38,409 nucleotides of DNA from Candidatus Neomarinimicrobiota bacterium. GTDB lineage: Bacteria; Fidelibacterota; UBA8477; JABMPR01. The first letter of the stretch is position 1. The number at the start of each line of letters is the position of its first letter. The stretch lies in NCBI GenBank assembly GCA_034716895.1, contig JAYEKW010000109.1, positions 1-38,409 on the forward strand, read 5' to 3'. Shown here piece after piece: positions 13,661 through 22,422 of the stretch. Position numbers and translations under genes: made by a program. The notes below the pieces were generated by a model. That model ran no database searches. It worked only from the letters and a program-made list of their open reading frames with translations, and was not told the DNA's origin.

Positions 13661-13685
13661 GGTCTAAACTCAGCCCAAAAACAGC

Positions 13686-13721
13686 GGAGGGGAGGACAGT
13701 CCGGGCGGACGCCTCCCCTCC
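13686..13721. terminator. Strong hairpin between convergent upp and the FliG-like gene
   Basis: Bases 13686-13695 (ggaggggagg) and 13712-13721 (cctcccctcc) are perfect 10-base complements. A nested gtcc/ggac pair in the loop makes the structure very stable. It sits between two convergent transcription units, where a bidirectional terminator is expected. No T-run follows on either strand, so classical intrinsic termination is uncertain. Confidence 0.6.
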
Positions 13722-13763: not shown

Positions 13764-14693
13764 CTATTCGATAAAGTCGGCTTCAGCGAACTCCTCGATA
13801 CTAAATTCATTTGCTGGATCAGCATCCATCTGTAAGATGAATTCAACCACCTTCTTTTGTGCTGCCTCCACCTGCTTGCGAGAAACGGGTCCTTCTTTGG
13901 GTTCGTACATGGCCTGCTTTTTCTGAGGCAGGTTTTCCAAAATCCGGTCGCTTAATTCCTGGTCTTGCCCCTTTAAAGCCAGGGCAACATCATCCAGATC
14001 CAAGCTGTTAAAAATATCCCTAAGAACACTATCAGGAAGAACGGGTACATTATCAAAGGTGAAGTGGTGTTTTTTCACTTCCCTGGCTAGCTCGGGATCT
14101 TCCTGTGATAGATAATCAAGAAATTGTTTTTGCTCTTTTATTTCCATGGTGCCCAATAAGCCAGCCATGGCTTTACCGCCACCTTCTGAATACTCAGAGT
14201 GGGAGGGGATCTGCTTGGCTTTTTCACGGAACTCTGCAGCAACATCGAGTACTGCTTCCAGGGGAACGTCTTTGATCTTCCCCAGATCGATCATGGCTTC
14301 AGTCCGCACTTCTGTTGGCAGGCGCTGAAGGAGCCGTCTCTGCATTTCCAGGGGTACCTGAGCCAAAAGGATCGAGATTGAGCGGGTAGGCTCAGAGCGA
14401 GTAAGGTAGGCCAATTGAACCTCAGACATATTTTCAAGAAAAGCAAAGGGCTGTGATGTTGCTTCTTTTGATTCAGCAGCAAATTTTTTAGACATGAAAG
14501 AGAAATAGAACTCTTCAAGCACTTGCTTTTTTGCCTCAAAGGGTGTTTCTTTCACTTTTGAAGCATGTTGACGAACCGCTACGATTTCTTCATCATTTAG
14601 ATTTGGGAATAGTTGTCCAGCCAGACGAGCTCCCAAGATATCAAAGAGAATGGCCGCCTTATCAATTCCGGCCAATTTTATCTGATCAGCCAT
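13764..14693 (-). CDS. fliG: FliG-type rotor protein, full length, outside a flagellar locus
   Basis: FliG forms the rotor ring that the MotAB stator pushes in flagella. This 309-residue protein shows all three FliG domains. The N-domain (about 1-75) opens with DKAAILFDILGARLAGQLFP. The middle domain (about 85-165) has SEPTRSISILLAQVP where flagellar FliG has the EHPQ motif. A Gly-Gly-Gly linker lies at 171-173. The C-terminal torque domain (about 174-290) has a charged helix around R225 and D232/D234/D235 followed by ALALKG. The start overlaps the stop of the FliF-like gene by one base. It is the last gene of the operon. The switch partners FliM and FliN are absent, so the rotor may not reverse. 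Confidence 0.85.
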   Translation of the reverse strand: MADQIKLAGIDKAAILFDILGARLAGQLFPNLNDEEIVAVRQHASKVKETPFEAKKQVLEEFYFSFMSKKFAAESKEATSQPFAFLENMSEVQLAYLTRSEPTRSISILLAQVPLEMQRRLLQRLPTEVRTEAMIDLGKIKDVPLEAVLDVAAEFREKAKQIPSHSEYSEGGGKAMAGLLGTMEIKEQKQFLDYLSQEDPELAREVKKHHFTFDNVPVLPDSVLRDIFNSLDLDDVALALKGQDQELSDRILENLPQKKQAMYEPKEGPVSRKQVEAAQKKVVEFILQMDADPANEFSIEEFAEADFIE

Positions 14694-16576
14694 TATTTAC
14701 GTCCCTTCTTTTTCTTTTTTCCATTTTGCTCTTCCTCAGCCGTTTCACCATCTGTTTCTTCAACTTCGCCGGTATCCTTGAGCCACTCCTTAACAATACT
14801 GGAGGCAGAACCGGGTTTGCTCACAGCCAGCGACACAACGGATTTTTTAATACTGTCTACTTCTCCAACCAGTTCCTGATCCACTTCCGGTTCAGGAAGT
14901 TCGTCTTCTTCGACCTGATCTTCTGGCTCTTGAATTTCTTCAAGCTGATCGTCAGCCGTTTCCGGAGCAGGAGGTAGATCTTGTGGTGAACGACGACGGC
15001 CTCCCATCATGGCACCGATAAGAATAGCCAGAGCCACTAGAACGGCAGCGCCGATGATCATCAGAGGCAATAAATTTTCATTATCTTCAGGAATGATGGT
15101 GGCTTGAAGTCTTTGGTTCTCCAGATCTTCCATCTGCTGCTTAAGTTTGTCTTCTCGTTCCCGGATTGCTGTTTTTTCAGCTTCCCTGCGTTTTTGTTCA
15201 AGTTCGAGCTTTAAGCGTTGTTCTTCTTCAAGATCTACAGCAGACAGCTGATTCTTAAGGTCATCTAATTGCTCAGTGAGCAAAGCCAGGCGTAATGAAT
15301 CCTGACGGAGACGATCTTTGGCTTGCTCTTGTTGGGATTCAAATAGTTGGCGTCGTTCTTCAGCTAATCGCTCTTGCTCTTGCTGACGCAGGTCGCTTAA
15401 TTCTTTTTCACGCTGGCGAATCCGATCTGATTCATCCTGGCGGATCCGGGCCAATTCGGTTTCATGTTCTTTCTGTTTTGCTAATTCTTGTTGCCTCAGG
15501 CGAGCCATTTCAGCATTCTGGGCATCCTGGTTAACCTGCTCTTGTCTTATGCGCTCCTGTTGAGCTTCAAGGTCCTTGATCCGTTGATTCTCAGATTCTT
15601 CTTTTTGCCGGGCTTCAATGGCTGCCATCTTTTCAGCAATAGATTTCAACAGCAATTGTTCAACATCAGGCTTGTCAGCAATGGTTCCTTGAAAATTGGC
15701 AGTCATCACTTGCAGTTTATCGCCGCGTTCACGATTAAAATGGGAAGCAACCATGGCTACTGTACGTATATTTTCAATGATCTTTGGAGAAATTGGATCT
15801 TCCAGGATCACGGTCAATTCCATTTTATTTACTCTTAAAGAGGGACCTGTTGTGCTGGCAACCGTATGACGAGAAAGACTGGGAGATGTAGGGTTGGCAT
15901 AATCAACCAGATTTCCCTCATTACTCGCAATGGCAACGGGCTCAATATTTTCTTCAAGGATCACTTCCTCTTCAGCTAGAGACAAACTGGCTTCTGCGGC
16001 TACCGTTGAACTTGTGGTATCTTCAATAATGGCGACCTCAGCGAGATCTTCATCCGCTGCATAGATCACCCCATCATAGGCATCTTCTTCAACCAGGATT
16101 TCTTCTTCATAAAGTTCAAATCCGGGAGACTGAATTCCGGGAAAACCGGGAATGTCTGATGGAACAGTTGATTTAATAGGACGTTTTTTTAGAACGGTTT
16201 TGGTCTTTTGCTTACCAGGAGCAATTTTTTCTTTACTTCCCAGGGGTGGGAGACCAGGTGTTTTACTGCGAACGGATTGAGTATATATTTCTTGCTCTGG
16301 AGAGATCGTTCCTTTGATGCCGGGAGTTTCATAAATAGTTGTATATTGTTGAGTTGGTGTGGTTTCCATGACCACGTTGACATTCACAATGAAGTTCTCA
16401 TGACGTAAAATACGATAGACGGCATCACTAACCCGCTGTTGTATGGTGTTTTCCAACAGGATCTTTTGTGAAAGGACCTCTTTATTCGTGTCCGGAAAGG
16501 CAAGCACCTGCGAGATCAACACTAATGTGGTGACTACGATTCCTGTCATGATGTGTTTAAATGCCGGATACTTCAT
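14693..16576 (-). CDS. FliF-like ring protein with long coiled-coil stalk and FliG-binding-like tail
   Basis: This 627-residue protein resembles the C-terminal part of flagellar MS-ring protein FliF. An N-terminal signal or anchor (about 8-26) precedes split RBM3-like segments: IQQRVSDAVYRIL..VNVNVVME (45-71) and KMELTVILEDPISPKIIENIRTV..FNRERGDKLQVMTANF (251-295). Between them lies an acidic, low-complexity insert. A coiled coil rich in Gln/Glu/Arg (about 310-490), a transmembrane helix (about 502-524) and an acidic tail follow. The tail's SASSIVKEWLKD (590-601) resembles the helix by which FliF binds FliG. RBM1 and RBM2 are missing. The ATG has GAGGAG six bases upstream. I infer an inner-membrane ring carrying FliG. 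FliF homology is remote, from motif reading only. Confidence 0.7.
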   Translation of the reverse strand: MKYPAFKHIMTGIVVTTLVLISQVLAFPDTNKEVLSQKILLENTIQQRVSDAVYRILRHENFIVNVNVVMETTPTQQYTTIYETPGIKGTISPEQEIYTQSVRSKTPGLPPLGSKEKIAPGKQKTKTVLKKRPIKSTVPSDIPGFPGIQSPGFELYEEEILVEEDAYDGVIYAADEDLAEVAIIEDTTSSTVAAEASLSLAEEEVILEENIEPVAIASNEGNLVDYANPTSPSLSRHTVASTTGPSLRVNKMELTVILEDPISPKIIENIRTVAMVASHFNRERGDKLQVMTANFQGTIADKPDVEQLLLKSIAEKMAAIEARQKEESENQRIKDLEAQQERIRQEQVNQDAQNAEMARLRQQELAKQKEHETELARIRQDESDRIRQREKELSDLRQQEQERLAEERRQLFESQQEQAKDRLRQDSLRLALLTEQLDDLKNQLSAVDLEEEQRLKLELEQKRREAEKTAIREREDKLKQQMEDLENQRLQATIIPEDNENLLPLMIIGAAVLVALAILIGAMMGGRRRSPQDLPPAPETADDQLEEIQEPEDQVEEDELPEPEVDQELVGEVDSIKKSVVSLAVSKPGSASSIVKEWLKDTGEVEETDGETAEEEQNGKKKKKGRK

Positions 16577-16608: not shown

Positions 16609-17253
16609 CTAACCGATCGTTAGAAATGTTATATCAACGCGTCTATTTTTTGCGCGATTTTCAACAGAATCATTTGCAACTTTTGGTGCTGTATCTCCAA
16701 ATCCGATAGCTCTGAATTTATCGCTTGGGATACCTTGTGATGTAAGATAGCGAATCACAGCAGCAGCTCGAGCTGATGACAATTCCCAATTTGATGGAAA
16801 AGTAGCTGAGCGAATAGGTACATTGTCTGTGTGTCCTTCCACGGCAATGGCATAAGTTGCTTTATCCATGGTGGTCACCAATTTCACCAAAAAGGCTTTA
16901 ATTGGTTGCGAAAGAGCAGCGTTACCGATATTGAAAGCCAGGTCACTGGCAATTTCCAGAGTAACGCCACGGGCATCCATACGAACCTTGACCTGTTGCT
17001 GTAATTTTTGGTCTCTAACCAGTTTTTTTACTTCCATATTGATCTGACTCAAGGAAACCTTTTTTGATTTCTTGCGGGCGCCCTGGTGTTCTCCCAGAGA
17101 TTGACCAAATTGTTCCAGTTTGACCGGATCCAGGGTGGACATGGCAAAGAGCAACACAAAGAAGGTCATGAGCAGAGTCATCATATCCGCGTAGGTGGTG
17201 AGCCAACCGCCGGTGTCGTCGCTTTTAGGCGCTTTTTTTGCCGTTACAGCCAC
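16609..17253 (-). CDS. motB: MotB-type stator subunit with peptidoglycan-binding OmpA domain
   Basis: MotB anchors the ion-driven stator to the cell wall. The 214-residue protein has a short cytoplasmic N-terminus and one transmembrane helix, TTYADMMTLLMTFFVLLFAM. Its D23 is the ion-carrying aspartate. A periplasmic linker and an OmpA-like domain follow (about 95-214, with VEGHTDNVP and ENRAKNRRVDI). It is shorter than most flagellar MotB, mainly in the linker. The start codon is GTG at 17253 with GAGGA about 9 bases upstream. It follows motA by five bases, as expected for a stator pair. Confidence 0.93.
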   Translation of the reverse strand: MAVTAKKAPKSDDTGGWLTTYADMMTLLMTFFVLLFAMSTLDPVKLEQFGQSLGEHQGARKKSKKVSLSQINMEVKKLVRDQKLQQQVKVRMDARGVTLEIASDLAFNIGNAALSQPIKAFLVKLVTTMDKATYAIAVEGHTDNVPIRSATFPSNWELSSARAAAVIRYLTSQGIPSDKFRAIGFGDTAPKVANDSVENRAKNRRVDITFLTIG

Positions 17254-17258
17254 GCTGA

Positions 17259-18065
17259 CTAATCCTCGTAAACCCTGTCACGTGGTGCTAAATAAGAGTT
17301 GAGAAATTCTCGTACCAGAATGGGGTGTTTCCGAACTTTCAACATAATGACACCGTCAATGATCATGTTCTGCGTAATATTTCGCTTGTCGATCCTGGAG
17401 CGTAGTTTGGCAGCTATCGGTAGAAAAAACAAGTTGGCGAATAATGCCCCATAAAAGGTTGTAATCAGAGCAATTCCCATGGATTGACCCAGCTTGGCTG
17501 CCGGATCAATGTCACCACCACCATCACCAGGTGCAGCACCCATGGCAAAGAGCATGGCGACCAGTCCAACCAGGGTTCCCACCATACCAAAGGCAGGGGA
17601 AAGGGTTCCCATGGTTTTAAAAACGTTGGCTTCTGCATCTTCACGAAGTTCACGGTTTATGATCCTGGTTTCCATAATACTACGAATGTCATCCTCTGGT
17701 AGACCATCTACGATCAATTGGACGCCATCCTTTAAAAAGAAATTACTGACTCCTGGAACCGCTTTTTCCAGATCGGATGTTCCCTTTCGGGCAACACCGG
17801 CCAACTCAACGAGTTCTTTCAGCGTATCAGCATCATTATGATTGTCACCCTTGAAGACAGCCCATAGGTTTGTATATAAGGATAAAACCTCTTTTACAGG
17901 GAAAGCCATCGCTGTTGCTGCTATGGTTCCACCTAAAACGATCATGAGAGACTGGACATCCACAAAGGTCATCACGCCATTAGGTAATGTTAAAGACACA
18001 CCGTAGACAGCATAACCGATCAAGCCTGAGCCGAACAATAGTCCTATAATGGTTGCAAAATCCAT
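17259..18065 (-). CDS. motA: MotA/PomA-type stator ion-channel subunit
   Basis: MotA is the four-helix stator subunit that couples ion flow to rotor movement. The 268-residue protein has TM1 (3-25), TM2 (38-56), TM3 (155-176) and TM4 (196-216). It keeps the torque-loop charges R93 and E100 (VARKGTSDLEK) and the prolines P157 and P216. T164 in GMVGTLVGLV and T202/T203 in ITTFYG match positions that are threonine in sodium-type PomA and alanine in many proton-type MotA. This points to Na+ use, as an inference. An AAGGA precedes the ATG by 7 bases. The match to flagellar-type MotA is closer than to ExbB/TolQ. Confidence 0.93.
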   Translation of the reverse strand: MDFATIIGLLFGSGLIGYAVYGVSLTLPNGVMTFVDVQSLMIVLGGTIAATAMAFPVKEVLSLYTNLWAVFKGDNHNDADTLKELVELAGVARKGTSDLEKAVPGVSNFFLKDGVQLIVDGLPEDDIRSIMETRIINRELREDAEANVFKTMGTLSPAFGMVGTLVGLVAMLFAMGAAPGDGGGDIDPAAKLGQSMGIALITTFYGALFANLFFLPIAAKLRSRIDKRNITQNMIIDGVIMLKVRKHPILVREFLNSYLAPRDRVYED

Positions 18066-18084: not shown

Positions 18085-19452
18085 TTATTCCCTTGCCGAG
18101 ACAGCCGAACGCAATCGGTTCTCATTTAAAGCGCGCAGAATGTTGCGTACTTCATCATATCCGGGGTCGATCTGCAGGGCAATATTCCAATTGATAGTCG
18201 CTCGATCGATCTGATTTAATTTGTAGTAAATTGAACCTCGCCGGGCGTAGGCCAGAGCCAAATTCGGGTTGTATTCAAGCGCTTCATTGATCTCAACAAG
18301 CGCATCTTCAAATTCTTCGTTGTAGAACAGTCTTAATGAACGGGACAAATGTTTCAAAGCTTGATTGACCTGGGCATCAGAGACGTGACGAGCCAATTGC
18401 AGCGAGGCAACTGAGTCTTCCAGAACTTTGTTCCGTTGCTCCAACTGTTCCACCATACGGTTTAAGTGCTCAATTTCAGTTGAAGACATTCTTAAGGAAT
18501 CTCTCAAGACCAGAAGCTGACGTTCCTGGGCTTTATGCCAGCTGGAATCGATGACCGTACGTAGTGGTAAACCTTCTTCAGTGACAACACCGGAGATCTT
18601 GATACCTCCCCGTTGTTTGCTGGTTGATGACTTGACCCGGGGCAGGAAATAATCCAGACCAATACCTATACCTGGAGGGTTCTCACGATCTTCACCCAAA
18701 TAGGGTAAATTCTGTATATTGGAAAAACCGATATTTATGTGGTATTCCTGGGTTAGGGGAAGTTTAACACCAGCATTAATCCCAACGCCGTCCCACTCCA
18801 GAATAAAGTCCAGACCACCTCTATCAGCCATGATATTCGTGTTCAATAACAAACCTAAAAAGAAACCAATATTATTGGTTTTGGCCACCATCACAGTATC
18901 ACCAGGTGTACTGGTGGTATCCATGCTGAATTTACCAAAATTTGAACCATAGCGACCGGAGCCGACACCCAGGTAAGTTTTCAGGCTATAATCTGAAAAG
19001 CTATTTTCACGACTTAACAAGATATAGTAGGATAGGTTGCGAACCCGGTCTTCCAAATTGGTCGAATCCGAACTGCCCGTAGTAAAGCTGATATCGTTAA
19101 CGCCAATTCCTACAGCAGTTTCGCCATAGGTCAGAAGCCGATCTTGAACATGCAGTGCCAATTCAGCCTGATTGCTATTTGAACCGGCCTGGATGGCAGA
19201 CAAGCCAATGCGAAAATCTCTGGTAACATCAGTCTCTAGAAAGGCACCTTTGTTCCAGAACTCAGTTTCAAAAGCTCCTCTTGTAGATTGTCCGGCAACT
19301 CCGATGCGCAGAAGGTAAGGTTCGTTATACAGGCTTGAAGTAGGTATGTGCATCATGGGGCCCGGTCGGGAGTAATTCAAGGATGTCTGACCATTCACAA
19401 ATAGTGCGCTGGTTATAATAATCAGGGTCAAAAGTATTTTGAGTGTTTTCAT
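18085..19452 (-). CDS. Outer-membrane barrel-like protein with coiled-coil and TPR tail
   Basis: This 455-residue protein starts with a signal peptide (about 1-21, cleaving near VNG/Q). Residues about 22-290 alternate like beta-barrel strands and are rich in Gly, Asn and Tyr, for example LKTYLGVGSGRYGSNFG and INAGVKLPLTQEYHINIG. A coiled coil (about 305-355, LEQRNKVLEDSVASL) and two or three TPR units (about 365-445, LAYARRGSIYYKLNQIDRA) follow. I infer an outer-membrane barrel whose C-terminal arm reaches into the periplasm. No named family is recognised. It lies 19 bases upstream of motA and has GGAG 8 bases before its ATG. Confidence 0.7.
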   Translation of the reverse strand: MKTLKILLTLIIITSALFVNGQTSLNYSRPGPMMHIPTSSLYNEPYLLRIGVAGQSTRGAFETEFWNKGAFLETDVTRDFRIGLSAIQAGSNSNQAELALHVQDRLLTYGETAVGIGVNDISFTTGSSDSTNLEDRVRNLSYYILLSRENSFSDYSLKTYLGVGSGRYGSNFGKFSMDTTSTPGDTVMVAKTNNIGFFLGLLLNTNIMADRGGLDFILEWDGVGINAGVKLPLTQEYHINIGFSNIQNLPYLGEDRENPPGIGIGLDYFLPRVKSSTSKQRGGIKISGVVTEEGLPLRTVIDSSWHKAQERQLLVLRDSLRMSSTEIEHLNRMVEQLEQRNKVLEDSVASLQLARHVSDAQVNQALKHLSRSLRLFYNEEFEDALVEINEALEYNPNLALAYARRGSIYYKLNQIDRATINWNIALQIDPGYDEVRNILRALNENRLRSAVSARE

Positions 19453-19486
19453 CTAATGATCTCCGGGATCAGCCTTTCATCTCGCA

Positions 19487-20356
19487 TCATTCCTGTACAA
19501 ACCGTTTTGCCAGGGTTAGGTATTCACTTCCAGGATGACGGGAAACCAATTCCTGAAAAGCCAGTTTGGCTTCAGGAAGGCGATCCTTGTTCTTAAAAGC
19601 CAGGCCGATCATGACCAGGGCATCGTCCAGTTTATCTGAATACTCAAAACGTTGTACTTGTTCCAGGGCGCTAATAGCTTCGTCATAGAGACCTTTTTCA
19701 AAATAACAACGTCCCACCCAATACTGAGCATTAGCTCGCAGGGTGATATCACTACCACGTCGTACAATTGTGTTAAATTCATCAACAGCCTGATAATAAA
19801 ATTGTTGATGAAATTTGGTTAGACCTCTCCGGTAGGTGGCCTGTTCTTCAGCAATAGTTAGTTTAGGTCCCATTGGAGAGTGCTGCATAGGTCGTACGAT
19901 CACATCCACATCTTTCCAGGGTGTATCGAGTTCTGCATAAACGCGATCAGACATTTGGGAGTTACCAGGTACAAAACCGGGTTGTTGAATAGCTTTAATT
20001 TGTTGATCCACCAGGCTGGTGATACGATCTGAAAGCAATGCTTGATCGGTTTCACCGGCTGCTTTGATCATCGTGATCTCGGTCTGAAGACTGTCAATGA
20101 CCCTGGTTTGAAAGCGCAGTCGAATTTCAGTTTCAGCTAATTTTTGTTGATATCGGTTCAGCTCTTCTTCCAGAACCTGTTGTTCGAAGGGGGTTTCCGG
20201 TGTGTCACTATAGATTTGCAAAGTATCGTTTGAAAATTTACTGGTGTCCTCGATCATTAAACCAATATCGTACAGGAGATTTCCACCGGTTTGTCCTAGA
20301 AGTGGGCTGGCGACGATAATCGTCAAAATAATGATAGTGGTTCCAGTGCGCATCAT
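19487..20356 (-). CDS. Exported coiled-coil and TPR protein (CpoB/YbgF-like layout)
   Basis: The chosen ATG at 20356 gives 289 residues with a signal peptide (about 1-21, ending LLGQ). The frame is open upstream, but only through the end of the previous gene. A coiled coil (about 50-95) precedes three TPR units (about 165-285) with motifs such as NAQYWVGRCYFEKGLYDEAISALEQV. This resembles CpoB/YbgF-type periplasmic proteins. Its C-terminal half closely parallels that of the lipoprotein encoded just upstream (NAQYWIGECFYSLEDFESAI), so the two are probably paralogues. The gap to the upstream gene is 10 bases. Confidence 0.75.
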   Translation of the reverse strand: MMRTGTTIIILTIIVASPLLGQTGGNLLYDIGLMIEDTSKFSNDTLQIYSDTPETPFEQQVLEEELNRYQQKLAETEIRLRFQTRVIDSLQTEITMIKAAGETDQALLSDRITSLVDQQIKAIQQPGFVPGNSQMSDRVYAELDTPWKDVDVIVRPMQHSPMGPKLTIAEEQATYRRGLTKFHQQFYYQAVDEFNTIVRRGSDITLRANAQYWVGRCYFEKGLYDEAISALEQVQRFEYSDKLDDALVMIGLAFKNKDRLPEAKLAFQELVSRHPGSEYLTLAKRFVQE

Positions 20357-20366
20357 GAGTTTAGAC

Positions 20367-21332
20367 TTATTGTTTCCCCTGTAAAAAATCGTGGGCTTGA
20401 GTGACCAATTCACTTTCAGGATAATCAAGAATGAACTGGTTCATGTTTTCCCGGGCTTTCAGATACCGTCCTAACTGTTGATAGCTGATAGCAATTTTGA
20501 ATAAAGCATGGTCACTTTTATTGTTCTCGGGAAAGGCAAAGACCTTTTTAAATTCGTTAATGGCGGATTCAAAATCTTCCAATGAATAGAAGCATTCTCC
20601 AATCCAATATTGGGCATTATCGGCATAGGCTCCATAGGGTTCACGTTCAATAACTACCCGGAAATCCTGAATGGATTCAAGGTATTCATTATTGAAATAT
20701 CTGTTCAGAGCATCGTTGTAAGCCATGCGATAATCGGCATTGAATGTATAACCACGGGCAGGAGGCTGGGTTGGCATTGAAGGTTCTTCATTAATGACAG
20801 GTGCCGCGACAGCCACGGGTGTATCCATTTCAAGAACAGACTTGACAGGTGACTTCACAGGCTCAGGCTCCGGTTCAGGTTGATCCAACCTTGCTTCTGT
20901 GTGGGTTTGAACCGCGAGTTGCTCGATCTGTACTTCCAGAGAATCATTCAGGACTTCCAGATTTTTCATGCCTTCTTTAAGGGAATCGATTTCTCTGATA
21001 AGAACATAAATATTACCACGCAAATTGATGATATCGGGATCACGTGGTGTTGCCACAACTTCGATAATAGGTTCTTCGGCTTTTTTATCCAGTTTCGTTT
21101 GATAAAAGACAACCTGGGAATCCATAACAGCAATAGTGTTTTTCAGCTGTTCAATTTCCATGCGGGATTCACGCAATTTGACCACTTCTGCAGCCAAGGC
21201 TTTCATCTGGGACTGCAATTTCAATTGCTCGATATTGCGAGGTGGCGTAGCAGGCTTTTTGGGGGTACAAGCCACAAGTCCCATCAGGGCTATCAAGCCA
21301 AGTGTTAATAGAAAGGTCTGTTTAGATGTCAT
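20367..21332 (-). CDS. Coiled-coil and TPR lipoprotein
   Basis: The ATG at 21332 (321 residues) starts a lipoprotein signal with lipobox LVAC (C22) and has GGAAG close upstream. Longer in-frame starts lie inside the upstream gene and are unlikely. Two coiled-coil stretches (about 35-75 and 105-145) are followed by a Pro/Glu-rich linker (about 155-195). Three TPR units end the protein (about 205-318). It overlaps its upstream neighbour by 11 bases. It probably sits in the outer-membrane inner leaflet and projects TPRs into the periplasm. A scaffold role in the motor complex is inferred from context. Confidence 0.75.
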   Translation of the reverse strand: MTSKQTFLLTLGLIALMGLVACTPKKPATPPRNIEQLKLQSQMKALAAEVVKLRESRMEIEQLKNTIAVMDSQVVFYQTKLDKKAEEPIIEVVATPRDPDIINLRGNIYVLIREIDSLKEGMKNLEVLNDSLEVQIEQLAVQTHTEARLDQPEPEPEPVKSPVKSVLEMDTPVAVAAPVINEEPSMPTQPPARGYTFNADYRMAYNDALNRYFNNEYLESIQDFRVVIEREPYGAYADNAQYWIGECFYSLEDFESAINEFKKVFAFPENNKSDHALFKIAISYQQLGRYLKARENMNQFILDYPESELVTQAHDFLQGKQ

Positions 21333-22317
21333 GTTCTTCCCAGTCGATGGAATAACTATAGCCAATAAATGAACCAAAAGATTTTGGTACATAGAGTTCA
21401 AATTCGCCACTGGCACCGGGGAAAAGAGAAGTGTCAGTATTAACGCCACTAGAAAAAACGTGGTGGGATCCTTTAACAAAAGCGGTCAATTCGCGAGTGT
21501 CACCACTCCAATTGATCCTGAAGAGAAAATTTACCTTTACAAAATCAGCCCGTCTGCCGCCTATGTTTTTAACAATCCCGGAGAGAATGGTATTGCCGCT
21601 GCGATCTTTACGCTCCCTGATGCTACCGGAAAGAACCACATTGCCAGTATATTTGCTTTCTCTCGTGTCGCCTTTAACATCCTGTGTACCTGCCATGGAA
21701 GACTGGTTATTATTAATGTTCATGGGTGCACCACCGCGACGTGAACCGGGCTCAGTAACCGCAGGTGCACCGGGTTCGGTGGGAATGTTGTCAACAATAC
21801 GAACAACCTGATCACGGGAAACGGTAAGGACGCCGATGAGGGTCTTAACTTGAATATTTTCTTTGTCCTGATCGATTACATCACCAAACAATTTGGTGCC
21901 GTTCTCTAAATGAACCTCTTTACTATATATACTTAAAGGATTGGTCCAAACTTCACTCTGGGTCTGGATCTCGGTCAGTTTCTTTTTAACATACTTTAGT
22001 TCTGCAGCGAGGCGTTTGACCTCATAATTGATCTCGCCAGTGACAAAATCAGTAGAGGCACCTTGTTCAGGTTGGTTCTTTTTAAGTTGATCCAGATTAT
22101 AGATCAGGTTGTCAGCTTGCTCGCCACTTTGCCAGGCTGATTCATCCGTTGAATTGGCATCTACACCAGCAACTTCAGCACGATCTTTTACCTCGGCGTT
22201 TTTTTCTGATTTATCCCAGGATTCTTCCTCAGGTGCTGACTTGCCACCGAACATTGAACACTGTACAAATATCAGGGTTAGCGCCAATAACAGAACTTGT
22301 AAGCTGTATCGCTTCAT
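21322..22317 (-). CDS. Probable lipoprotein with a small beta domain and an FxLYD-like C-terminal domain
   Basis: This is the first gene of the motor operon. The ATG at 22317 (331 residues) has AGAGG six bases upstream. The signal sequence ends in FVQC (C20). Gln before the Cys is atypical for a lipobox, so lipidation is uncertain. An acidic linker and a short coiled coil (about 95-120) follow. Next is a compact beta motif, VHLENGTKLFGDVIDQ..VLTVSRDQVVRIVD (about 135-176). The C-terminal domain (about 226-329) has TILSGIVKNIGGRRADFVKV, typical of FxLYD/immunoglobulin-like envelope domains. Function is unknown; context suggests an envelope component of the motor assembly. Confidence 0.7.
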   Translation of the reverse strand: MKRYSLQVLLLALTLIFVQCSMFGGKSAPEEESWDKSEKNAEVKDRAEVAGVDANSTDESAWQSGEQADNLIYNLDQLKKNQPEQGASTDFVTGEINYEVKRLAAELKYVKKKLTEIQTQSEVWTNPLSIYSKEVHLENGTKLFGDVIDQDKENIQVKTLIGVLTVSRDQVVRIVDNIPTEPGAPAVTEPGSRRGGAPMNINNNQSSMAGTQDVKGDTRESKYTGNVVLSGSIRERKDRSGNTILSGIVKNIGGRRADFVKVNFLFRINWSGDTRELTAFVKGSHHVFSSGVNTDTSLFPGASGEFELYVPKSFGSFIGYSYSIDWEEHDI

Positions 22318-22393
22318 ACGCAGCCTCTTCCGACTTAACATCGCTTCCAGTTTTTGTGCGGTAGTGTATCTGTCCTGCACCGCATTCGTGTAG

Positions 22394-22422
22394 AATTTAG
22401 AGGTGTCTTAAAATCTTGTCAA
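22394..22422 (-). promoter_or_regulatory. Sigma70-like promoter of the motor operon
   Basis: On the minus strand, TTGACA (22417-22422) is followed after exactly 17 bases by TAAATT (22394-22399). This predicts a transcript start near 22387 and a leader of about 70 bases before the first gene of the FliG/MotAB operon. The -35 is a perfect consensus and the -10 matches four of six positions. Confidence 0.6.

Follow-up and report, generated by a model that had tools for sequence, protein, structure and literature searches.

A conserved MotAB-FliG-FliF operon with an outer-membrane barrel protein in Candidatus Neomarinimicrobiota, a candidate non-flagellar rotary machine

Neomarinimicrobiota is a phylum of mostly uncultured bacteria of the ocean and the subsurface. 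We analysed a stretch of 38,409 nucleotides (hereafter the window) from a genome of Candidatus Neomarinimicrobiota (Fidelibacterota, SAR406; assembly GCA_034716895.1, contig JAYEKW010000109.1) and found on its minus strand a tightly packed operon of eight genes, in which neighbours overlap by at most 11 bases or are separated by at most 34, as calculated from their coordinates. Sequence comparisons and structure models identify in it flagellar-class stators, a FliG, an S-ring-like FliF and an outer-membrane barrel with periplasmic tetratricopeptide repeats (TPRs), which are firmly linked to one another and independent of the flagellum. That the operon encodes a motor core without a flagellum is highly probable. 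The complete reading, in which this core drives a non-flagellar, ion-powered rotary machine that spans the envelope and is coupled to the outer-membrane barrel, has in our estimate a probability of about 0.5. The original prediction made on this DNA had correctly recognised MotAB and FliG as a motor, but it had overlooked a FliF-like gene (14693-16576) and a lipoprotein gene (21322-22341) belonging to the same operon. A reduced FliF, and an operon that lacks FliM, FliN and an export gate, make the motor more unusual than that prediction assumed.

Results

Conservation and linkage of the operon

The protein encoded by gene 4 (18085-19452), in which a barrel is fused to TPRs, was used to scan one genome per species over 84,980 species. 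The scan gave 142 relatives, of which 80 (loci L060-L139) were listed and their operon parts identified with hidden Markov models (HMMs) built in this analysis. The titles of these 80 are mostly Candidatus Neomarinimicrobiota or Marinimicrobia, the rest being "bacterium", "uncultured bacterium" and "FCB group bacterium"; with 80 of 142 relatives listed, these titles do not prove that the operon is confined to the phylum. In all 80 loci, as far as the contigs extend, the genes follow the unbroken order lipoprotein-(CpoA)-(CpoB)-barrel-MotA-MotB-FliF-FliG. Matches were obtained for the lipoprotein in 75 loci, MotA in 79, MotB in 74, FliF in 66 and FliG in 60, and every missing part was accompanied by a contig edge within 244 bases (within 204 bases of the start of the locus for the five without a lipoprotein match). 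The same order was seen in 33 loci of another set (L023-L051 and L053-L056), 16 of whose 34 members (L023-L056) lie on contigs also represented among the 80, and in 7 further loci. MotA follows the barrel gene in 79/80 loci, and the contig of the 80th stops 33 bases past the barrel. The fixed linkage to the motor genes, on which the original prediction leaned, is thus borne out, and in these relatives the barrel gene co-occurs with the motor genes.

We then surveyed 245 genomes of the phylum, 94 of them of good quality (at least 90% complete, at most 5% contaminated). The barrel protein was counted as present at an expectation value (E) of 1e-20 or below, weaker matches being excluded as TPR-only. 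It was found in 164 genomes and was absent from 81 (from 23 of the 94 good ones). Together with the lipoprotein gene, which was missed only at contig edges, it makes up the envelope parts found at every locus.

Independence from the flagellum

FlhA, a component of the flagellar export gate, was detected in 42 of the 245 genomes. Presence tables compared by eye, as for the CheA counts below, showed 33 genomes with both the barrel protein and FlhA, 131 with the barrel protein only, 9 with FlhA only and 72 with neither; among the good genomes, 16 had both and 55 the barrel protein only. Since 131 of the 164 carriers lack FlhA, the barrel protein is not a part of the flagellum. FliM and FliMN_C were found in 16 and 15 genomes of a smaller set of 60 relatives, nearly the same ones as FlhA, for which one match below the cut-off (G032, 8.7e-5) was left out. 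A strong barrel match (E<=1e-50) was present in 45 of these 60, 31 of which have neither FliM nor FlhA over cut-off. The operon itself contains no FliM, FliN or export gate gene, and the genome from which the window comes has canonical FliG, FliM and FlhA genes and a second MotAB pair on a different contig. CheA occurred in 32 of the 245 genomes, of which 29 also have FlhA, and in just 2 of the 131 barrel carriers without FlhA (G105 and G244). Because FliM and FliN are missing and CheA is rare, rotation of the operon motor is probably not switched by chemotaxis.

The survey also shows that fliG alone is an unsafe marker of motility in this phylum, since the operon fliG (13764-14693 in the window, and the same gene in L060-L139) occurs in genomes without flagellar export genes. 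A metagenome survey of motility (PMC10359470, as far as its accessible text goes) scores fliG, fliM and fliN and requires two of the three. Such a two-of-three rule would protect against the operon gene, whereas scoring fliG only would misjudge many of the genomes surveyed here.

Conserved flagellar residues in the stators and a lost FliM-binding motif in FliG

MotA (gene 5, 17259-18065; PF01618, 1.9e-24) is a stator subunit closest to the flagellar class, with E values of 5.9e-52 for PomA and 0.0061 for TolQ, all below the NCBIfam cut-offs. MotB (gene 6, 16609-17253) has a plug region and a peptidoglycan-binding OmpA domain (PF13677, PF00691). Residues were counted in alignments of the window protein with those of the long-enough loci among the 80. 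The equivalents of MotA R90, E98, P173 and P222 are present in 78/78 rows and the ion-binding aspartate of MotB in 71/71. The pair therefore has the torque residues, prolines, aspartate, plug and OmpA domain of the flagellar ion transporter class of MotAB, a class described in the accessible part of PMC12505986, which gives R90/D288-D289 and E98/R281 as the stator-rotor contacts of Escherichia coli.

FliG (gene 8, 13764-14693) consists of N, M and C domains (PF01706, 4.9e-25; PF14842; PF14841). K264 is present in 58/58 rows, and position 281 is occupied by lysine (50 rows) or arginine (8). The EHPQR motif for FliM binding is lost: E125 remains in all 58 rows, H126 and Q128 in none. EHPQ is kept in 10 of 11 FliG from FlhA-bearing genomes of the phylum and in the flagellar FliG of the window's own genome. 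A tree built on the C-terminal part places the 31 operon rows in one clade (100/100), the 13 flagellar rows in another (99/98) and five FliG fusions, described below, in a third (92/76); long-branch warnings concerned chiefly the fusions and E. coli. The conserved residues and the separate FliG clade indicate that the operon motor is an old, separate line under selection and not a product of decay.

A reduced FliF with the RBM3 and beta-collar of the S-ring

The product of gene 7 (14693-16576) is a reduced FliF with an RBM3/beta-collar region (residues 28-297), a coiled coil (306-493), a membrane helix (502-524) and a C-terminal tail resembling the FliG-binding one. PF08345 (YscJ_FliF_C) was found in 19 of 21 FliF-like members (best 1.8e-15), the window's own protein scoring just below the cut-off. 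With a profile of the family, solved FliF rings were matched over their RBM3 part (5.8e-5 and 8.4e-5); the same search returned unrelated coiled-coil or membrane-helix chains such as calnexin (0.0032) and VAMP2 (0.045). A model computed from 49 rows comprises a helix (28-57), a long strand (62-83), a low-confidence loop up to about residue 231, a second long strand (235-259), a helix (264-277), a strand (287-293), the helices 306-445 and 451-493, the membrane helix and finally C-terminal helices. All 17 Foldseek matches of this model at E<=0.001 are FliF rings, and VIA-align gave 8z5v_A (Z 15.2, 131 residues, 6.5 A) and 6scn_A (Z 14.8, 102 residues, 1.9 A). The hhalign comparison of the FliF-like alignment with E. 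coli FliF reached 7.6e-6. The assignment as a FliF homologue rests mainly on PF08345, the profile matches to solved rings, Foldseek and VIA-align, and Pfam, Foldseek and VIA-align all point to the RBM3 and beta-collar of the MS-ring. RBM1 and RBM2 were not found: in the model RBM3 begins at about residue 28, directly after the signal, leaving no space before it. A loose hydrophobic-tryptophan pattern modelled on the FliF tail is present in the last 90 residues of 60/60 rows. The coiled coil is long in the window's genus and nearly absent in some families (L032, L037).

The barrel-TPR protein

The product of gene 4 was predicted by AlphaFold2, from 62 rows, to contain a 12-stranded barrel (within residues 46-271), a 75-residue helix (303-377) and TPRs (381-454), with a mean predicted local distance difference test score (pLDDT) of 76 and a predicted template modelling score (pTM) of 0.48. 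Foldseek returned outer-membrane barrels at all ranks from 1 to 19, led by OmpG, FapF and NanC, with a best E of 9.6e-6 and template modelling scores by query length of just 0.15-0.31. VIA-align placed KdgM at Z 17.8 (162 residues, 2.2 A) and FapF at 15.7; its list consists mostly of TPR rows matching the C-terminal part, so that a family missing from it proves nothing. These results agree with the fusion to an outer-membrane barrel proposed originally; a soluble fold was not predicted for the region. In the model the barrel is closed, up-and-down and even in strand number. An even number of strands leaves both ends of a barrel in the periplasm, so the helix and TPRs would face the periplasm and the motor. 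Pfam and NCBIfam scans gave no PorV match for this protein. From its linkage and fold it is a strong candidate for the link between motor and outer membrane.

CpoA, CpoB and the lipoproteins

Three further envelope proteins precede the barrel. Gene 1 (21322-22341, with a start ATG at 22341 or 22317) encodes an envelope lipoprotein with a signal and cysteine (lipobox FVQC) whose window sequence matches no Pfam family. Gene 2 (20367-21332), CpoA, is a lipoprotein (LVAC lipobox), and gene 3 (19487-20353, its longest frame extending to 20428), CpoB, a secreted protein; both have a probable coiled coil and TPRs of the CpoB/YbgF type. A lipobox pattern was found in 23 of 70 rows of the first protein, 18 of 31 of CpoA and 4 of 62 of CpoB, the called starts varying, and the lipoprotein label is accordingly sure for the window's genus and less sure elsewhere. 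Matches of CpoA (5.9e-20, 72.1 bits) and CpoB (1.5e-18, 67.5 bits) to TIGR02795 (tol_pal_ybgF) remain below its cut-off of 90.1 bits. The motif NAQYWxG is characteristic of CpoB/YbgF proteins (NANYWLG in E. coli CpoB), and a regular expression of this type matched 17 of 31 CpoA and 23 of 63 CpoB rows.

The original prediction ascribed a coiled coil with TPRs to all three TPR proteins and took two of them for duplicates. C-terminal TPRs are present in each, above Pfam cut-offs, but a helix was modelled only in the barrel protein, the coiled coils of CpoA and CpoB depending on weak matches below cut-off. The TPR similarity of CpoA and CpoB is real (25% identity over 151 residues, E=2e-16), at a level that allows duplication in an old sense only. 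In a tree with 51 rows per position, including some copies from the same contig, each position showed 2 label changes and neither formed one clean branch, the tool warning of few columns and long branches. A recent tandem duplication was rejected on the identity and the tree. As a link from motor to outer membrane, the role foreseen for all three, the barrel-TPR protein remains a strong candidate, but CpoA and CpoB are dispensable: among 55 loci with lipoprotein, FliF and FliG matches, 23 have both, 21 have CpoB only and 11 have neither.

Two observations concern the loci where these proteins are missing. Among loci with over 2 kb between the contig start and the lipoprotein gene, a TPR lipoprotein of another kind is encoded upstream in 31 of the 40 that lack CpoA, against none of the 21 that have it. 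This candidate replacement was found at L093:7971-8558 and 31 other loci, all without CpoA, no more than about 250 bases from the first gene in 24 cases and at about 1.7-1.9 kb in 8, and it is likely to stand in for CpoA. The median length of MotB is 219 amino acids in the 23 loci with CpoA and CpoB, 263 in the 21 with CpoB only and 297 in the 11 with neither, as if a longer MotB linker took on a spacing role where these proteins are missing.

Fused relatives and type IX secretion

At four loci (L057:5580-9149, L158:4531-8812, L159:2923-6132 and L160:7098-10799) a FliF-like/FliG fusion is followed by two coiled-coil TPR proteins, with no adjoining MotAB. Seven of these eight TPR proteins show similarity to the sequence of the operon barrel-TPR protein or to the HMM built from it (E 4e-7 to 5e-17), presumably over the helix and TPRs. 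Pfam gave no match for the FliF-like part of the FliG fusions; an alignment of five fusion N-terminal parts matched the operon FliF by hhalign at 2.3e-9 over both RBM3 halves, in a single comparison.

A more elaborate arrangement was found at L052:4308-13202 (contig C94 of genome G050), where one string of genes encodes two response regulators, a FliF-FliG fusion, MotA, MotB, a protein of 1120 residues and a PorV-like barrel with TPRs, the PorV match lying below cut-off. The 1120-residue protein has FG-GAP repeats, an immunoglobulin-like domain and a CHU_C type IX signal (PF13585, 1.1e-8, above cut-off). The string is possibly a surface-motility cluster and, though a lone and distant example, gives the strongest hint that motors of this kind drive a surface adhesin.

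The translocon protein SprA was present in 223 of the 245 phylum genomes (93 of the 94 good ones), and GldM (TIGR03517, a profile that may miss distant GldM) in only 2, G143 and G205, where it may reflect contamination or transfer. With GldM so rare, the usual type IX motor was not found in the phylum. Streamlined genomes of family f7 (for example G027, G045 and G051, 96-98% complete) have SprA and lack both the barrel protein and GldM. Secretion in f7 thus does not need the operon motor, and an obligate type IX motor was rejected on these genomes.

Flanking signals and neighbouring genes

A promoter-like site (TTGACA-17-TAAATT, 22394-22422, minus strand; 10/12 in a consensus scan) lies upstream of the operon. 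It is weak evidence, since the region contains 21 such sites compared with 14.7 (standard deviation 3.5) in shuffles. After FliG, a terminator-like hairpin (GGAGGGGAGG/CCTCCCCTCC) with a T run (13677-13721, minus strand) was noticed by eye and is absent from the output of the computed scan. Scans of ten further window proteins matched only housekeeping or unrelated families, such as LptD, UPRTase, SSB, gyrase and PriA.

Discussion

Homology and the invariant residues strongly support a mechanism in which the MotA/MotB stators, anchored to peptidoglycan through the OmpA domain of MotB, pass ions and push FliG. The N-domain of FliG would hold the C-terminal tail of the reduced FliF, and a bare RBM3/collar S-ring would turn in the periplasm; the fold favours this step, and the size, stoichiometry and rotation of the ring are projected from it. 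Such a ring would rotate without RBM1 and RBM2, rod, export gate or FliM/FliN ring. Judging from operon linkage and topology, torque could then pass from the ring and its coiled coil to the TPR/coiled-coil proteins, and from these to the barrel-TPR protein and the lipoprotein. The most likely output would be of the gliding type, with surface or outer-membrane complexes moving against the cell wall and no chemotactic switching, although taken by itself we rate this step as somewhat less likely than not. L052, where a FliF-FliG fusion and MotAB accompany an adhesin secreted by the type IX route, favours surface movement. More tentative is the idea of a new machine in which the bare S-ring turns an outer-membrane barrel complex that carries surface adhesins round or along the cell, with neither secretion nor switching. 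As part of the same tentative idea, the motor would have been passed on widely through a major marine phylum and retained by members that have no flagellum, and it would have side branches carrying FliF-like/FliG fusions, one of them linked to a type IX-secreted adhesin.

Several results weigh against a rotary machine coupled to the outer membrane. The acidic pair D288/D289 of FliG is shifted (glutamate at 287 in 54/58 rows, aspartate at 288 in 9/58) and R297 is in place in 0/58, so that the stator-rotor contact is unlike that of E. coli. The FliF-like model has a mean pLDDT of 66 and a pTM of 0.29, and hhalign matched the family to the flagellar FliF of its own genome at 0.027 only. The contact between barrel and ring is one that we only infer, and the main operon contains no adhesin and no rod, hook or filament genes. 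L052 comes from a single genome, the sole near match among 245, with a motor only distantly related to that of the operon. Some carriers have titles which we take to denote marine single cells or metagenome-assembled genomes of plankton, to which gliding would be of little obvious use. The whole operon is also held by genome G036 (L042, contig C1), probably Fidelibacter multiformis IA91T as far as its identity can be deduced, a cultured strain described as non-motile in the accessible part of PMC11652737; the local G+C of L042 is 46.6%, compared with 45.6% reported for the strain.

This last carrier and the plankton-titled genomes give real weight to the main rival, a Tol-Pal-like envelope machine in which the motor pulls or turns the barrel and lipoproteins against peptidoglycan for envelope integrity or division, with no motility. 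The operon has suitable parts in its two CpoB/YbgF-like proteins, its lipoproteins and the OmpA domain of MotB. TolB_N was found in 11 of the 60 relatives only (best E 1.4e-7, above the Pfam cut-off), and many members of the phylum may lack a canonical Tol-Pal system. CheA, which follows the flagellum and not the operon, would suit a role without motility; its absence is weak evidence, however, since gliding in Flavobacterium is likewise not known to involve CheA. Set against these points, MotA is of the flagellar class, the FliF-like and FliG rotor has no place in Tol-Pal, CpoA and CpoB are dispensable and the barrel protein is absent from a third of the phylum genomes. No match to TolA or TolB was obtained among the eight operon proteins. 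We regard a Tol-Pal-like role as rather unlikely, though it deserves serious attention.

Still less probable is a motor that takes over from the missing GldL/GldM in powering type IX secretion. The near-universal SprA, the rarity of GldM and the PorV-like barrel and CHU_C substrate of L052 would fit such a role, but the f7 genomes speak against it, as does the lack of a PorV match in the operon barrel protein, and part of the missing GldM may lie with the profile. As for spare or decaying components of a flagellar motor, or an additional stator-rotor set serving the flagellum, the four motor proteins are all flagellar homologues and some carriers, the window's own genome included, do have FlhA. 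This origin is nevertheless highly improbable, given the invariant catalytic residues, the fully supported FliG clade, the lost FliM motif and the fixed order with barrel and lipoprotein; a flagellar remnant was rejected on the carriers without FlhA.

Returning to a non-flagellar rotary machine coupled to the outer membrane, comparison with known systems helps to define it. The operon shares with the flagellar motor the invariant MotA and MotB residues, the three-domain FliG, the RBM3/collar fold and a putative FliG-binding tail. It differs in having neither FliM/FliN nor export gate, in a FliF without RBM1 and RBM2 and usually with a coiled coil, in a barrel, TPR proteins and lipoprotein instead of rod, hook and filament, and in residing mostly in genomes without FlhA. 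Like GldLM of Bacteroidota, it would be an ion-driven motor coupled to outer-membrane complexes in a phylum with the SprA translocon; in contrast, its motor is MotAB-FliG-FliF, GldM is nearly absent and some SprA carriers have no operon. Tol-Pal with CpoB likewise places CpoB-like coiled-coil TPR proteins, an OmpA domain and lipoproteins beside an ion-driven motor, whereas the operon has a flagellar-class stator, a rotor and an integral barrel. The injectisome (non-flagellar type III secretion) is another flagellar relative put to other use, which kept export and dropped the motor; the operon keeps the motor and export is absent. The Agl-Glt gliding machine of Myxococcus likewise combines a MotAB-class motor with TPR proteins and outer-membrane barrels, and it is not known to have a FliG/FliF rotor. 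Its AglRS belong, according to the accessible part of PMC12505986, to a generic TolQR-like class, unlike the operon MotAB. A weak GltC TPR match (0.0047) appeared incidentally in the general NCBIfam scan, no search having been aimed at AglRQS or Glt.

In the open-access literature searched, including the accessible parts of PMC5596340, PMC4454575, PMC11652737 and PMC10359470, no FliF-FliG-MotAB operon outside the flagellum is described, and the name Marinimicrobia is absent from the main text of PMC12505986. Homology connects the motor with that of the flagellum, and there is a genuine possibility that the machine represents a category of its own. If the reading is right, the flagellar rotor and stator would work as an engine by themselves, with no export, switch or propeller, and thus as a minimal or repurposed motor. 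The widespread ocean lineage SAR406 would then gain a surface mechanical activity, together with a genetic target that is testable in a cultured member.

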